Assembly: GCF_900105735.1 (NCBI RefSeq)
Contig: NZ_LT629793.1
Location: 3,782,001-3,846,000 of the forward strand
Direction of reading: 5' to 3'
Length of the DNA stretch: 64,000 bases
Source: Pseudomonas yamanorum
Lineage (GTDB): Bacteria; Pseudomonadota; Gammaproteobacteria; Pseudomonadales; Pseudomonadaceae
The notes under the pieces were generated by a model, which saw only the letters and a program-made list of their open reading frames with translations, was not told where the DNA came from and ran no database searches. This document shows positions 51,149 through 57,409 of this stretch, in pieces. Each line of letters opens with the position of its first letter. Within the stretch, counting starts at the first letter, position 1. Both the position numbers and the translations under genes were made by a program.

Positions 51149-52990
51149 TTACAGCCCGTCGAGCATCGCCTTGTTACGCACCGCACCCTTGTCGGCACTG
51201 GTAGCCAGCAGGGCGTAAGCCTTCAACGCGGTAGTGACTTTGCGCGGACGCTTCTCTACCGGCTTCCAGCCTTTCTTGTCCTGCTCGATGCGGCGTGCCG
51301 CCAGTTCTTCGTCGCTGATCAACAGGTTGATCGAGCGGTTCGGAATGTCGATCAGCACCTTGTCGCCATCCTGCACCAGGCCGATGGCGCCGCCCGCAGC
51401 GGCTTCCGGAGAAGCATGGCCGATGGACAGGCCCGAGGTACCGCCGGAGAAGCGGCCGTCGGTGAGCAAGGCGCAGGCTTTGCCCAGGCCTTTGGATTTC
51501 AGGTACGACGTCGGGTAGAGCATCTCTTGCATGCCCGGGCCGCCTTTCGGGCCTTCGTAACGGATGATGACGATGTCGCCTTCCTTCACTTCGTCAGCGA
51601 GGATGCCGCGTACCGAGCTGTCCTGGCTTTCGTAGATCTTGGCGCGGCCTTCGAACACGTGGATCGACTCGTCCACACCGGCGGTTTTCACCACGCAGCC
51701 ATCCAGCGCGATGTTGCCGTACAGCACGGCCAGGCCGCCTTCTTTCGAATAGGCATGCTCAACACTGCGGATGCAGCCGTTTTCACGGTCGTCGTCGAGG
51801 GTTTCCCAACGGGTCGACTGGCTGAACGCGGTTTGCGTAGGGATGCCGGCCGGGCCTGCCTTGAAGAAGTGATGCACGGCTTCGTCGGTGGTCTGGGTGA
51901 TGTCCCACTTGGCGATGCCTTCGGCCAGGGATTTGCTGTGCACGGTCGGCAGGTCGGTGTGCAGCAAGCCGCCACGGGCCAACGAACCGAGGATCGAGAA
52001 GATCCCGCCGGCGCGGTGCACGTCTTCCATGTGGTACTTCTGGATGTTTGGCGCGACTTTGCACAGTTGCGGCACGTGGCGCGACAGGCGGTCGATGTTC
52101 CGCAGGTCGAAGTCGATCTCGGCTTCTTGCGCGGCGGCCAGCAAGTGCAGGATGGTGTTGGTGGAACCGCCCATGGCGATGTCCAGGGTCATGGCGTTTT
52201 CGAACGCCTTGAAGTTGGCGATGTTGCGCGGCAACACCGACTCATCGTTCTCGGTGTAGTAGCGCTTGCACAGTTCGACGATGGTGCGGCCTGCCTGCAG
52301 GAACAGTTGCTCGCGGTCGCTGTGGGTGGCCAGTGTCGAGCCGTTGCCCGGCAAGGCGAGCCCTAAGGCTTCCACCAGGCAGTTCATCGAGTTGGCGGTG
52401 AACATGCCGGAGCACGAACCGCAGGTAGGGCAGGCGCTGCGCTCGTATTCCGCAACCTTCTCGTCAGAAGCGCTGGAATCGGCGGCGATGACCATGGCGT
52501 CCACCAGGTCGAGGCCGTGGGAGGCGAGCTTGGTCTTGCCGGCTTCCATCGGGCCGCCGGAGACGAAGATCACCGGGATGTTCAGGCGCAGGGAGGCCAT
52601 CAGCATGCCAGGGGTGATCTTGTCGCAGTTGGAGATGCACACGATGGCGTCGGCGCAGTGGGCGTTGACCATGTATTCCACGGAGTCGGCGATGATCTCG
52701 CGGCTCGGCAGGGAATACAGCATGCCGTCATGGCCCATGGCGATGCCGTCATCCACGGCGATGGTGTTGAATTCTTTCGCTACACCGCCGGCGCGTTCGA
52801 TCTCGCGGGCGACCAGTTGGCCCAGGTCCTTGAGGTGGACATGGCCGGGTACGAACTGGGTAAACGAGTTGGCAATCGCGATGATCGGCTTTTTGAAGTC
52901 GTCATCTTTCATCCCCGTGGCGCGCCACAATGCGCGGGCGCCGGCCATGTTGCGGCCGTGGGTGGATGTTTTCGAGCGGTAATCGGGCAT
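51149..52990 (-). CDS. ilvD: Dihydroxy-acid dehydratase
   Basis: Iron-sulfur enzyme of valine, isoleucine and pantothenate synthesis. The length of 613 residues matches the family. Cluster and Mg sites are visible in [15 protein letters not shown] and [19 protein letters not shown]. The C-terminal [22 protein letters not shown] carries the active-site Ser. It is a single-gene unit whose upstream region of about 250 bases contains a long hairpin near the MFS gene end. Confidence 0.97.
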
Positions 52991-53249: not shown

Positions 53250-54449
53250 TCAGCGGCCGACCCGAGCGTTCGTCACCACGCCCCAAACGCTGAACACGAT
53301 GAAGCTGATGGCGATGGTCAGCAGCAGGTTGGCTCCCGCTTGGGCGAGGGCGGCGCTGCTGACGGCGGCGGTGATGAACATGATGCTATTGCCGGCCGAA
53401 GCGGCGGTGCCGGCGCTGCTGGAGAACAGCAACATGGCCGCGGAAATCGCGGCGGGGCGTACCAGGGTCACGGCCAGGGCGCTGATCAGCATCGGGATCA
53501 GCAGGGTGATGGTGGTGATAGCTCCAAGACCGACGATCAGTATCAGAAGCACGCCTGCAATAAGCAGCAATCCAAGGCCGATGTTGATTTGCCGGGACAG
53601 CGAGATGCGTTTTTGAAGATACGACGCCGCCAAGCCACCGAGCAGATAGGCCACGCCATACACCATGAGTACCAGTGCGTACTGGTATTCGGAGAGTTTC
53701 AACGAGTCCATGAAAATCAACGGTGTCACGCTGATCAAGGCGAAGTAGCAGGCGAACACCAGCGCGGCGATCCACCAGTAACGCAGGAAGTCGCGATTGG
53801 TCGCGACATCTTTCAGAGTGCCGATGATCGACACCGGCGTGCGGTGCGGGCTGGCGGACTTGGAGGGCAGTATGCAGAACGCATGGATCAACATGCCCAA
53901 CGCCATCAGTGCGAATCCATAGAAACTACCTTGCCAGTCGAAGGTGGTTTGCAACCAGGAGCCGATCAGCGGTGACAAGGCGACGAACGAGCCGCTCAGG
54001 GTCATGTAGTAGAGGCGAACACGGGCTCGATCCTGTTCTTCGAACAGGTCCTCCACTAACGCGTGGCCCAGTACGAAGAAGCCGCAACCCATGGCCTGGA
54101 CCGAGCGAAACAGCAGGAAGCTCAGGTAGTCCGTCGATAATGCGCAACCTATCGCACCCAGGATCGACAGCGTGATGCAACCGAGCAGGACTTCCTTGCG
54201 GCCCCATTTATCCGACAGCGGGCCGGCGACCAGTTGGGAAATCGAAAAAACCAACGTGAACAGGCTGATGGACAGCGCGACATCTGCGCTGGGCATGTCG
54301 AATCGGGCGGCGAGGGCCGGGAATGAGGGCAGCAGGATATTGATCGGGAAAAAGCTGATCAGCGAAATGCAGGTGATGAGGATGAAGCGTGAGAGTTGGT
54401 GGCGTTTTATCTCGCTGCCGAGTAAGGGCGAGCAGGAAGACTCAGACAT
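53250..54449 (-). CDS. MFS multidrug-type exporter (Bcr/CflA-like)
   Basis: A 399-residue transporter with twelve predicted helices. It has the MFS loop motif AGPLSDKWGRKEVLLG between helices 2 and 3, and DMPSADVALSISLFTLVFSISQL typical of Bcr/CflA exporters. The start MSESSCSPLLG has GGAAAT upstream; a longer frame using a TTG start at 54509 is less likely. It lies 122 bases downstream of the SagB-type gene on the same strand and could export the product of that enzyme. Base composition is lower in G+C than in most of the window, especially towards the start. Confidence 0.88.
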   Translation of the reverse strand: MSESSCSPLLGSEIKRHQLSRFILITCISLISFFPINILLPSFPALAARFDMPSADVALSISLFTLVFSISQLVAGPLSDKWGRKEVLLGCITLSILGAIGCALSTDYLSFLLFRSVQAMGCGFFVLGHALVEDLFEEQDRARVRLYYMTLSGSFVALSPLIGSWLQTTFDWQGSFYGFALMALGMLIHAFCILPSKSASPHRTPVSIIGTLKDVATNRDFLRYWWIAALVFACYFALISVTPLIFMDSLKLSEYQYALVLMVYGVAYLLGGLAASYLQKRISLSRQINIGLGLLLIAGVLLILIVGLGAITTITLLIPMLISALAVTLVRPAAISAAMLLFSSSAGTAASAGNSIMFITAAVSSAALAQAGANLLLTIAISFIVFSVWGVVTNARVGR

Positions 54450-54571
54450 TGTTTTTATTTCCGGTGGGGTGCCAAAAACCGATATTAGCCTTGGGTGGCG
54501 AGAATTCAATCAATAAAGGTGGAGTCATTCTCTTCCAAAGGCATGCTGTAAAAGGCTGCATCGCCAAGGCC

Positions 54572-55654
54572 TCAATCAGTCCTCAAAAGCTTTTCGAATT
54601 CATCGCTGAAAACCTGACCGTCGCTGTAACCGGCGCCTACGAAAAGTACCAACTGCTCTTTAAGGTCCTGTATGCCAAGGGCTTTCTCGATCTTGGTGTC
54701 GTTGAGAGCGGAGGAAATCCAAGTGTTAAGCCCCATGGCGGTTGAAATGAGCTGAGCTGTTTGTGAGATGTGTCCGGCTTCTATCAGGGCAACTCGGTAG
54801 GCTCTGGAGTGTGGGTACTTCCACCACAGTTTGTCGAATCGTGATGTAATGAAAATACCAAAGGGAAGATTGTCGATGAAGTGCTGGCCGTTAAGGTAAT
54901 TTCCAAGAGGCTCTTGTATTCGACGAATCAGCCTGAGTGCGTGTAACTCCGGGTGGTAATAATAAAATCCGGGATTTACGCCTCTTATGTTGTGCGCATA
55001 CACATAACCTTCGCTGGAGCTTAATCCACCACCTGACGGGCTGCTTCGTCTAGCGCGGAAAGAGGGGGGCGTTAAATGTGAGGTGTCTTGCAGGCGTTCT
55101 TTTAAGTGCCCTAGAGACAGGTAGAGCAGCGTACTTAGGTCTTCTAAAGAAATGCTTTTGTTTAAATAAGTGCGGCAGGTTTTTCGCTTAACTAACGTGT
55201 GTTGCAGTAACGGGTATGTTCTGAGCGATTCGTTTGGTGAGGGTTGCGGTAGACTGATAAAGTCTTCTGATTGGAGATGGGCGAACCGATTCGAATCAGG
55301 AGGACTCTTGCGCATTACGCCCTGGCAGTGGGCCAAATAATGAGCTGCCCAACTGACGCCGTCTGTAGGTTGATCAGCGTCTGATAAGTCTTTTGTACCG
55401 ATGTGGAATATCCTCGACAAATCATCCCATCCCCACTGGTTATCTAACGTTGGCGCACCTTGTTGAATAATTGCATGGTGAGTGAACGTCGAGTCGATCT
55501 CAAACTCAGGGTTATAAAGCGAAAGGTCGTATATTAGCTCTAGCAGTCGCTGCGAGTGCGCGCGATCTAATTCAAATTGCTCATGAGTTTTGTAGTTCCA
55601 GATAATCAGATGTTGTGATTTGGTTAAGAAAAATAAGTTGGGATTCATTTGCAT
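54572..55654 (-). CDS. SagB/ThcOx-family flavin-dependent peptide dehydrogenase
   Basis: A 360-residue nitroreductase-fold enzyme. SagB-type enzymes oxidise azolines in peptides to thiazoles or oxazoles using FMN. The family landmarks are HTLVKRKTCRTYLNKSISLEDLSTLLYLSLG, the FMN-binding RRSSPSGGGLSSSEGYVYA, NPGFYYYHPELHALRLI and AYRVALIEAGHISQTAQLIS. The N-terminal 150 residues, starting NPNLFFLTKSQHLIIWNY, are a less conserved domain that could recognise the peptide. The start MQMNPNLFF follows GGGAAG; longer frames to 55705 or 55729 run back through the hairpin and peptide gene. The gene is visibly more AT-rich than the core genome, suggesting transfer. No YcaO cyclase is adjacent. Confidence 0.88.
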   Translation of the reverse strand: MQMNPNLFFLTKSQHLIIWNYKTHEQFELDRAHSQRLLELIYDLSLYNPEFEIDSTFTHHAIIQQGAPTLDNQWGWDDLSRIFHIGTKDLSDADQPTDGVSWAAHYLAHCQGVMRKSPPDSNRFAHLQSEDFISLPQPSPNESLRTYPLLQHTLVKRKTCRTYLNKSISLEDLSTLLYLSLGHLKERLQDTSHLTPPSFRARRSSPSGGGLSSSEGYVYAHNIRGVNPGFYYYHPELHALRLIRRIQEPLGNYLNGQHFIDNLPFGIFITSRFDKLWWKYPHSRAYRVALIEAGHISQTAQLISTAMGLNTWISSALNDTKIEKALGIQDLKEQLVLFVGAGYSDGQVFSDEFEKLLRTD

Positions 55655-55675
55655 TGTTTTCTTCCCATTCTTAGG

Positions 55676-55698
55676 GCTGGGTTGGCGTACAACCCAGC
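55676..55698. promoter_or_regulatory. Perfect 9-bp hairpin between peptide gene and SagB-type gene
   Basis: GCTGGGTTG and CAACCCAGC are exact complements around the 5-base loop GCGTA. On the transcribed (minus) strand it starts 14 bases after the peptide stop codon and ends 21 bases before the SagB-type ATG. It is not followed by a T-run. Such hairpins between a precursor gene and its enzyme gene often set the ratio of the two messages. Confidence 0.75.
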
Positions 55699-55712
55699 TT
55701 GTCATCAACGAC

Positions 55713-55778
55713 TTATTTAGGCATTCCAATCAATGCGAATGCTGCCAGTGCTTTTGACTCAAGAAAGATTGCATTCAT
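55713..55778 (-). CDS. Small peptide gene, candidate precursor for the SagB-type enzyme
   Basis: A 21-codon open frame beginning MNAIFLESK and ending FALIGMPK, followed by TAA. A GGAGAG ribosome-binding site lies five bases before the ATG. It lies directly upstream of the SagB-type dehydrogenase gene, separated by the 9-bp hairpin, and downstream of the inverted repeat at 55809. The peptide is hydrophobic and alanine-rich, has one Ser and no Cys or Thr, and has a basic C-terminus. Size and position resemble precursors such as PqqA, but I recognise no family. That it is translated and modified is inference. Confidence 0.6.
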   Translation of the reverse strand: MNAIFLESKALAAFALIGMPK

Positions 55779-55808
55779 ATCAGCTCTCCATTTCATTAAG
55801 TTAAATGG

Positions 55809-55833
55809 CTGTCACACAAAATGATTGTGACAG
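55809..55833. promoter_or_regulatory. 8-bp inverted repeat upstream of the peptide gene
   Basis: CTGTCACA-N9-TGTGACAG, perfect arms, 31-55 bases upstream of the peptide ATG on the minus strand. The position fits an operator overlapping the promoter of the peptide-SagB-exporter unit. The half-site order is the reverse of a CRP/Vfr site (TGTGA-N6-TCACA), so a different dimeric regulator is expected. The rest of 55834-55999 is AT-rich and holds no gene that I can support. Confidence 0.6.
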
Positions 55834-56040: not shown

Positions 56041-57237
56041 TTAGCTATTCGGCAACAACCGGCACGTAATGCTCTTGATATACCGAGTCTCGGCAATCGC
56101 CGGGTGCACCGGGTGATCCGGGCCCTGGCCGCCGCGTTCCAGCATCTGGATATTGCGGTCCAGGTGACGGGCGCTGGTCAGCAGGATGTTTTGCAGGTCA
56201 TCTTCCGGCAAGTGCATCGAGCACGAAGCGCTGACCAGGATGCCGTCCTTGCTGAGCAGGCGCATGGCTTGCTCGTTCAGGCGGCGGTAGGCGCCTTCGC
56301 CGTTTTTCATGTCTTTCTTGCGCTTGATGAAGGCCGGCGGGTCGGCCACGATCACGTCGAAACGCTCTTCGCTGGCTTTCAGCTCTTTGAGGGCTTCGAA
56401 CACGTCGCCTTCGATGCAGGTCATCTTCTCGGCAACGCCGTTCAGTGCCGCGTTGCGCTCCACGCCGTCGAGGGCGAAGGCGGAGGCGTCGACGCAGAAC
56501 ACTTCACTGGCGCCGAAGGCAGCCGCTTGCACGCCCCAGCCGCCGATGTAGCTGTACAGGTCGAGTACGCGTTTGCCTTTGGCATACGGAGCCAGGCGAG
56601 CGCGGTTCATGCGGTGGTCGTAGAACCAGCCGGTCTTCTGACCCTGGATCACCGGCGCTTCGAACTTCACGCCGTTTTCTTCCAGGGCAACCCACTCCGG
56701 CACCAGGCCGAATACGGTTTCGACGTAGCGGTTGAGGCCTTCGGCATCACGCGCGGCGGAGTCGTTCTTGAACAGGATGCCGCTTGGCTTGAGCACTTGG
56801 GTCAGTGCGGCGATCACGTCTTCCTTGTGGGCTTCCATGGTCGCCGAAGCGATCTGCACCACCAGGATGTCGCCGAAACGGTCGACCACCAGGCCTGGCA
56901 ACAGGTCGGAATCGCCGTACACCAGGCGGTAGAACGGCTTGTCGAACAGGCGGTCACGCAGGGACAGGGCCACGTTGATGCGGTGTACCAGCAGCGACTT
57001 GTCCAGCGGCAGCTTGATGTCGCGGGACAGCAGGCGGGCGCAGATCAGGTTGTTCGGGCTCATGGCCACGATGCCGAGGGTCTTGCCGCCGGCTGCTTCC
57101 AGGATCGCCTGGTCGCCTGCCTGGAAGCCGTGAAGAGGTGTGGCGGCCACATCGATTTCGTTGCTGTAGACCCACAGGTGGCCGTTGCGCAAACGACGAT
57201 CGGCGTTGGCTTTGAGACGCAGGCTTGGCAGGGACAT
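56041..57237 (-). CDS. rlmI: Class I SAM-dependent rRNA methyltransferase (RlmI-like)
   Basis: A 398-residue enzyme that would methylate a cytosine of 23S rRNA. It has an N-terminal PUA domain (RLKANADRRLRNGHLWVYSNEI), then the methyltransferase domain with the SAM motif KRVLDLYSYIGGWGVQAA and the catalytic segment FDVIVADPPAFIKRKKD, as well as a late VSASCSMHL motif typical of m5C enzymes. The start MSLPSLRLKANADRR is family-typical; the open frame upstream runs into a REPIN. The RlmI name rests on domain order and length. Confidence 0.88.
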   Translation of the reverse strand: MSLPSLRLKANADRRLRNGHLWVYSNEIDVAATPLHGFQAGDQAILEAAGGKTLGIVAMSPNNLICARLLSRDIKLPLDKSLLVHRINVALSLRDRLFDKPFYRLVYGDSDLLPGLVVDRFGDILVVQIASATMEAHKEDVIAALTQVLKPSGILFKNDSAARDAEGLNRYVETVFGLVPEWVALEENGVKFEAPVIQGQKTGWFYDHRMNRARLAPYAKGKRVLDLYSYIGGWGVQAAAFGASEVFCVDASAFALDGVERNAALNGVAEKMTCIEGDVFEALKELKASEERFDVIVADPPAFIKRKKDMKNGEGAYRRLNEQAMRLLSKDGILVSASCSMHLPEDDLQNILLTSARHLDRNIQMLERGGQGPDHPVHPAIAETRYIKSITCRLLPNS

Positions 57238-57322
57238 GACGTCGCTCCGGAAAAAAGAGCGGGAGTATACCGTGTTGTGCAGTACTTGGCCGCGCCGCCG
57301 GACATGTGGGTTGTGATATCCC

Positions 57323-57409
57323 TGTGGGAGCTGGCTTGCCTGCGATAGCATCACCTCGGTTATCTGAAAGACCGAGCCGTCTGCTTCGCAGGCAAGCCAG
57401 CTCCTACAT
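57323..57409. repeat. REPIN, family B
   Basis: The left arm is TGTGGGAGCTGGCTTGCC; the right arm ends GCCAGCTCCTACAT with one change. The loop begins AGCATCACCTCGGT, as at 4804. It lies between the divergent methyltransferase and HDOD genes, on the promoter side. Confidence 0.9.

Follow-up and report, generated by a model that had tools for sequence, protein, structure and literature searches.

The window analyzed here, a 64,000-nucleotide stretch of Pseudomonas yamanorum DNA (contig NZ_LT629793.1, positions 3,782,001 to 3,846,000 of the forward strand), contains a compact cassette in which a 21-codon open reading frame precedes sagB, a gene for a SagB/ThcOx-type flavin mononucleotide (FMN) dehydrogenase, which is followed by a gene for a major facilitator superfamily (MFS) transporter. 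An earlier note on this DNA had described the short frame with its GGAGAG site just before the SagB-type gene, the MFS gene on the same strand, the flanking genes ilvD and rlmI, an AT-richer island, and a peptide having one Ser and neither Cys nor Thr. All of these features were found where they had been placed: gene order and strand were confirmed by the coordinates, the composition of MNAIFLESKALAAFALIGMPK was as described, and the GC content was 0.40-0.51 across the peptide gene and sagB as compared with approximately 0.60 nearby. The features are as follows, those of the cassette first.

55713..55778, (-) strand: gene for the short putative precursor peptide, 21 codons plus stop, MNAIFLESKALAAFALIGMPK; LE motif at residues 6-7, core A12-A13-F14
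55784..55789, (-) strand: GGAGAG, Shine-Dalgarno-like sequence of the peptide gene, 5 bases ahead of its ATG, seen in the sequence
55676..55698, (-) strand: hairpin separating the peptide gene from sagB, from covariation in aligned spacers
54572..55654, (-) strand: sagB, SagB/ThcOx-type FMN dehydrogenase, 360 amino acids from the ATG (TIGR03605, PF00881, structure match to ThcOx)
55460..55654, (-) strand: SagB N-terminal domain, residues 1-65, predicted peptide-binding fold like that of an RRE (recognition element of RiPPs, the ribosomally synthesized and post-translationally modified peptides)
54815..54820, (-) strand: SagB Lys279-Tyr280, invariant in the alignment, in line with WKY of ThcOx
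53250..54452, (-) strand: MFS transporter, Bcr/CflA-like, 400 amino acids (TIGR00710, PF07690)
51149..52990, (-) strand: ilvD, flank, outside the cassette
56041..57354, (-) strand: rlmI, flank, outside the cassette

SagB passed the cut-off of TIGR03605 (129.5 bits against 78.4), PF00881 was the sole domain seen in it, and its structure matched that of ThcOx (5lq4_A) with an E value of 5.3e-16. Lys279 and Tyr280 were invariant in 17 of 17 aligned members of the family. If sagB began with the TTG at 55729, it and the peptide gene would overlap; the homologues in the alignment begin near the ATG at 55654. The N-terminal domain is predicted to be similar to RREs with bound leader peptides, and by this modeling SagB would possess a leader-binding domain of its own. 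The first AlphaFold model was weak at residues 73-89, a stretch that was left out of all inference. The transporter scored 180.3 bits against TIGR00710, which is below the cut-off of 200.9, and 146.2 bits against PF07690.

Conservation of the short peptide gene

We searched 398 Pseudomonas genomes, 144 of which had some SagB-like match; on sorting of the match list, sagB of the family described here was unbroken in 106 of the 398 and in pieces in 11 more. A GTDB scan contributed the best 80 of 173 relatives, which are 80 named Pseudomonas loci. Altogether 196 loci were pooled, removal of identical ones left 158, and splitting off 10 with broken or partial sagB left 148 distinct full-length loci, among which one species may occur twice. 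"Full-length" refers to a sagB of at least 330 residues in one alignment, and may include a few cases with internal stops (G122, G341). A frame was accepted if it began with M-x(2-5)-[LIMV]-[EQ]; a stricter rule also called for a GGAG, AGGA or GAGG site.

A short frame with the LE motif preceded sagB in all of the first 30 loci and in 80 of the 80 named loci, and a matching frame began approximately 120-260 nt upstream of sagB in each of the 148 full-length loci. Under the stricter rule, frame and Shine-Dalgarno-like site occurred together in 146 of these loci and in 11 of 2960 mononucleotide-shuffled upstream sequences, a control that tests chance and not independence, since the frame motif was derived from the same loci. 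A conserved putative precursor gene beside a modifying enzyme, by which RiPP systems are recognized, was therefore seen in 148 of 148 cases. The earlier note had suggested that conservation of the frame in related Pseudomonas be examined, and had named loci with an interrupted or unconserved frame and a persisting sagB as evidence against its proposal; among the full-length loci we found none of the latter.

The 148 loci encode 103 distinct peptide sequences with lengths of 21-26 residues, or 33-58 in a branch described below, and six representatives compared with Pfam and NCBIfam gave zero matches at E 1. For 61 distinct genes of the 23-residue group, the ratio of nonsynonymous to synonymous variation (pN/pS) was 0.40, a rough value because synonymous sites are far diverged. 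Glu7, Ala12, Asn13 and Leu14 were constant in 69 of 69 peptides of 23 residues, with four codons in use at Ala12 and four at Leu14. Variation was greatest at third codon positions, and 101 of 100000 permutations were equally extreme. The 21-codon frame is a real gene, and the distribution of variation over codon positions indicates protein-level constraint on the peptide.

Accessory enzymes and peptide cores

Among the best 80 of 173 relatives, the MFS gene was downstream in 80 loci, the rlmI/ilvD flanking pair was kept in 75, and a gene for an AurF-like protein stood between sagB and the MFS gene in 70 (for example, L043:10246-11220). The remaining 10 loci, which constitute the clade of the window, are without AurF, as is the window locus itself. 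The AurF-like protein scored 66.1 bits against PF11583 (cut-off 29.6), and the residues E, ExxH, E, H and ExxH, which we take to be the diiron ligand pattern of AurF, were kept in 85 of 85 aligned sequences; 2 short frames of 87 were left out of this alignment, and the AurF of G108 (L042), which aligns in two pieces, may be broken. The AurF-type oxygenase is likely a second peptide-modifying enzyme. A distant branch (L049, L050, L051, L176, L177, L180 and L181) has no AurF, and possesses a NodU-type carbamoyltransferase, sometimes a tetratricopeptide-repeat (TPR) methyltransferase, and another MFS gene; its peptides are the longer ones, of 33-58 residues.

A tree was constructed from 47 chosen rows, with support only from the Shimodaira-Hasegawa-like approximate likelihood-ratio test (SH-aLRT); some long branches meet in it, and the L172 row had two stop letters set to X. 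The AurF-less members formed one branch (SH-aLRT 99), and the base of the family was an open fork involving several branches with AurF and the one with the carbamoyltransferase. Because of this fork, it is only plausible that the window's clade lost AurF, as opposed to a gain elsewhere. The window's genome encodes an AurF homologue elsewhere (L052, C1:3278112-3278837; preceded by a 254-amino-acid frame), in surroundings that presumably resemble a pvf-type cluster. It was rejected as the missing partner on account of its 26% identity over 165 residues and its location away from the cassette. Neither SagB nor the AurF-like protein had a match in PADLOC, and a role in defence is accordingly unsupported.

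The type of peptide core followed the enzyme set without exception in the 148 full-length loci: 128 of 128 with AurF, 14 of 14 without it and 6 of 6 with the carbamoyltransferase. All of the AurF-bearing loci have, at a fixed distance from the LE motif, an Asn and, directly after it, Leu, Met, Trp or Phe (MKAITLEANKIANLAFLVAPKAR is the peptide of one such set). That Asn is present in 0 of the 14 AurF-less loci, whose 12 distinct peptides all have Phe or His at the following position, and each of the 6 carbamoyltransferase loci has the sequence SN[DN]AY. As judged from these alignments, such pairing of core and enzyme set is the pattern expected of a substrate.

The pairing also bears on a different role for the short frame, that of a regulatory leader peptide, in which ribosome stalling would control sagB and the MFS gene by way of the hairpin and the peptide would not be a substrate. 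The order of short frame, hairpin and operon is the usual layout of an attenuator, and the hairpin covaries: of its 8 pairs, 6 were changed on both sides across 19 aligned spacers with pairing kept. Yet core type and enzyme set change together at 148 of 148 loci, SagB has a predicted peptide-binding domain, and the consensus structure is a single hairpin, well ahead of the sagB start, in a region for which Rfam gave only a chance microRNA match (E 0.62). We consider such a regulatory role very unlikely. Neither a promoter for the peptide gene nor, by the scan's rule, a terminator turned up in a scan for sigma-70 promoters and terminators; for this reason the hairpin is not claimed as a terminator. 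It probably restricts read-through or shields the mRNA of the peptide.

YcaO and other known systems

ThcOx and McbC, the corresponding enzymes of azole RiPPs, oxidize azolines that YcaO-type enzymes make from Cys, Ser or Thr. The window SagB shares their fold, and ThcOx also has the aligned Lys-Tyr pair. The window locus, however, has neither a YcaO gene nor suitable core residues, and so lacks both marks of the azole RiPPs, which include the thiazole/oxazole-modified microcins (TOMMs) and linear azole-containing peptides (LAPs): a YcaO cyclodehydratase, and Cys, Ser or Thr in the core. The window core, KALAAFALIGMPK, contains none of these residues, the only Ser of the peptide being Ser8. 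Some relatives do have such residues; 59 of the 148 peptides have zero beyond the LE motif and the residue next to it.

The earlier note had stressed the missing YcaO partner, and had allowed that SagB might act with a distant YcaO on another precursor. The window's genome does have one YcaO, a 733-amino-acid frame 2.8 Mb from the locus, and YcaO matches occur in 316 of the 398 Pseudomonas genomes, as would suit an explanation in which SagB and a distant YcaO together form azoles, whether on this precursor or a different one. Against this explanation, 13 of the 106 genomes with unbroken sagB (G035, G058, G108, G112, G124, G173, G182, G198, G201, G239, G250, G340 and G347) have zero YcaO matches, although all 13 are listed as 99-100% complete and each carries the peptide. 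The core residues counted above also argue against it, as does the large size of the YcaO frames, mostly 730-800 amino acids among the matches listed; one paper concerns Pseudomonadota YcaO acting on uL16 (PMC13063428). Because of the 13 genomes, we conclude from gene content that YcaO is unnecessary, genome-wide, for this SagB family, and we regard the production of azoles with a distant YcaO as extremely improbable.

Neither RiPPs nor RREs are new, and one YcaO-free nitroreductase has been described. This nitroreductase, the closest characterized YcaO-free enzyme that we found, is a domain of PflD which, according to sections of a preprint (PMC12636437), turns Phe into Z-dehydrophenylalanine without YcaO; its authors propose there that other YcaO-less nitroreductases may form other dehydroamino acids. 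As far as passages of that preprint and of the earlier report on the Os17 cluster (PMC7726476) describe them, the pfl/pos clusters resemble the window system in having a SagB-type flavin domain and a ribosomal peptide, in Pseudomonas, and no YcaO. In PflD, however, the domain is fused to MNIO and is encoded beside HEXXH and GNAT genes, with a precursor of the NHLP type (85 amino acids in Os17), whereas the window system has SagB joined to a predicted RRE-like domain and a precursor of 21-26 residues (33-58 in one branch), with neither MNIO nor HEXXH enzyme. PF00881 is alone in the window SagB, where an MNIO fusion would mark a Pfl/Pos system, and the neighbors are MFS, ilvD and rlmI in place of genes for a HEXXH enzyme and an NHLP precursor. 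Two PflD-type Pseudomonas proteins, which showed 33-34% identity to the window SagB over 227-264 residues, were among the nearest non-family relatives compared, and one PflD-type locus was confirmed to have the same fusion and neighbors as the published system. The Os17 system, as portions of PMC7726476 present it, was considered and set apart. Separately, a Pfl/Pos-type cluster (L184:3235-7368), with frames for an MNIO-nitroreductase fusion and for HEXXH-like, GNAT-like and NHLP-like proteins, was seen in a genome that also bears a small cassette of the kind described here.

By E value the best NCBIfam match of the window SagB was TIGR04511 (putative peptide maturation dehydrogenase), which is SagB-like. 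The score of 147.8 bits is below the curated cut-off of 240, and the four TIGR04511 members examined, which score 454-580 bits and are 28-30% identical to the window protein, form a branch of their own; an LE-type short frame upstream of these four was not found under the ribosome-binding-site (RBS) filter. These members were also the four best matches outside the window's own genome in a class-level search, in which 34 of 369 genomes, that genome included, matched at E 1e-15, and in which the top outside match scored 165 bits as compared with 538. A family with this SagB was not recognized in other genera of the 369-genome sample, matches beyond the top four being untyped. A protein search gave 492 matches; among the 120 listed, many were nameless, and the named organisms were Pseudomonas except for one metagenome-assembled genome labelled Paenisporosarcina. 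Other SagB-like proteins were noted along the way. One of them (L187:3807-4880, G119; 28-31% identical) lies near frames that by eye appeared recombinase-like and ParB-like. In another gammaproteobacterium (L168, G532), up to three SagB-like matches stand in a row from 7168 to approximately 9045 onward, with no clear short upstream frame found under the RBS filter.

A peptide as raw material of a small molecule has its precedent in pyrroloquinoline quinone (PQQ), which is made from PqqA, of approximately 23 residues, by way of the radical-SAM enzyme PqqE acting on Glu and Tyr; in contrast to the window system, the PQQ pathway is without a SagB enzyme. The arrangement of domains in the window SagB is approached by BmdC, which has an N-terminal RRE-like domain and an FMN oxidase domain but acts on a nonribosomal peptide synthetase (NRPS) assembly line and not on a ribosomal peptide; ThcOx, for its part, carries RRE copies (both from passages of PMC8795117). 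Among the open-licence papers of PubMed Central (PMC) that the literature searches listed, we found no description of this cassette and no paper in which SagB and AurF occur together. Among individual reports, PMC13060819 concerns, from the portions relating to it, a different system, and the passages of PMC12710340, on RREs, yielded none on this cassette.

Proposed reaction and its implications

The reading we favor, with somewhat better than even confidence, is that the peptide is a RiPP precursor, that SagB, with its predicted RRE-like domain, desaturates Phe14 without YcaO, and that a trimmed product is exported by the MFS transporter. That the peptide is a substrate of SagB is well supported by the comparisons of sequence; the exact chemistry is what we infer. 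The earlier note's suggestion, that the flavoenzyme does something to the peptide other than azoline oxidation, finds support in the frame at 148 of 148 loci, in the genomes with no YcaO match and in the precedent of PflD. We placed the reaction at C-alpha and C-beta of residue 14 on the basis of that precedent, the conversion of Phe to Z-dehydrophenylalanine, together with the pattern of the cores.

Under this proposal, the peptide would be translated from its strong-looking site, and the hairpin behind the peptide gene would hold SagB at a lower level. Binding of the M-x-x-I-x-L-E segment would fall to the RRE-like domain. The FMN domain, with its invariant Lys-Tyr, would then act on the residue eight positions past the Leu of LE, removing hydrogen from its C-alpha and C-beta. 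This target would be Phe in the window, either Phe or His in the remaining peptides from loci without AurF, and Leu (rarely Met, Trp or Phe) in the AurF-bearing ones. The AurF-type diiron oxygenase of most relatives would have its site at or close to Asn13, the residue preceding the target; the window's clade has neither this enzyme nor the Asn. After trimming by host proteases, the product would leave the cell through the Bcr/CflA-like transporter.

Several observations weigh against desaturation at residue 14, or against the peptide as substrate more generally. The pairing of core and enzyme set may stem from shared descent, because each switch is a single event in the tree. Also, loci with broken or partial sagB (L179, L181, L183 and L255-L258) have peptides that still look intact. 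In L182, whose sagB aligned as three separate pieces, the Shine-Dalgarno site of the peptide gene is lost and Gln replaces Glu7. In L259 and L260, of which only late pieces of sagB are left, the frame was not found at a place that had to be extrapolated, the sagB start being missing. The evidence from broken loci is mixed overall. (L182, L258, L259 and L260 appear to be decaying cassettes, with sagB as pieces or remnants.) Finally, A12, N13, L14 and L17 are equally or nearly equally invariant in AurF-bearing peptides, a pattern which by itself leaves the target free among them.

This last point, and the same co-conservation data, would also fit a SagB that acts on the peptide by another reaction, such as a different backbone oxidation, an oxidative cleavage or a cross-link, with AurF or the carbamoyltransferase tailoring later. 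We hold this to be possible but doubtful, in view of the dehydrophenylalanine that the YcaO-free domain of PflD yields (PMC12636437, in the sections on that domain) and of the retained Lys-Tyr pair common to ThcOx. The very short peptides, their variable C-terminal tails and an exporter of the small-molecule type might suggest instead a scaffold of the PEARL-like kind, to which an enzyme coded elsewhere would add an amino acid; SagB would oxidize the added residue, and a small molecule would be clipped off and exported. The 3-thiaglutamate pathways are the model for such a scheme. However, the named genes of the cassette are those for SagB, AurF, carbamoyltransferase, methyltransferase and MFS, with no ligase seen among them (no model search for a ligase was made), and it is the middle of the peptide that is conserved, while the tails vary in length and last residue. 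We judge the scaffold scheme to be quite unlikely.

If the favored reading, desaturation of the peptide by SagB, is extended to the family, the cassettes would represent a new class of RiPP, a proposal to which we give even chances. In this class, precursors of 21-26 residues (33-58 in one branch) would be converted to dehydro-Phe, dehydro-His or dehydro-Leu products by a stand-alone RRE-SagB enzyme with no cyclase. Swappable second enzymes, either an AurF-type diiron oxygenase or a NodU-type carbamoyltransferase with or without methyltransferase, would each be linked to a distinct core motif. The small product would be exported, and the class would extend over about a quarter of the sampled Pseudomonas species.

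The usual view of SagB-type enzymes is that they carry out the second half of azole formation. Here, at 148 loci, one is retained alongside a tiny peptide that in the window is incapable of azole formation, and some of the genomes gave no YcaO match. If our proposal is true, this would be a minimal two-gene system for direct peptide desaturation, and the window form, consisting of peptide, dehydrogenase and exporter, may be one of the most compact RiPP cassettes. Since sets both with and without the diiron oxygenase occur in nature, what each enzyme does can be tested directly, and a demonstrated product would raise the cassette to a new RiPP class. The peptides are so short that gene callers likely skip them, and the pathway, whose products are likely an unrecognized family of small exported molecules, may therefore be overlooked in many sequenced Pseudomonas genomes.

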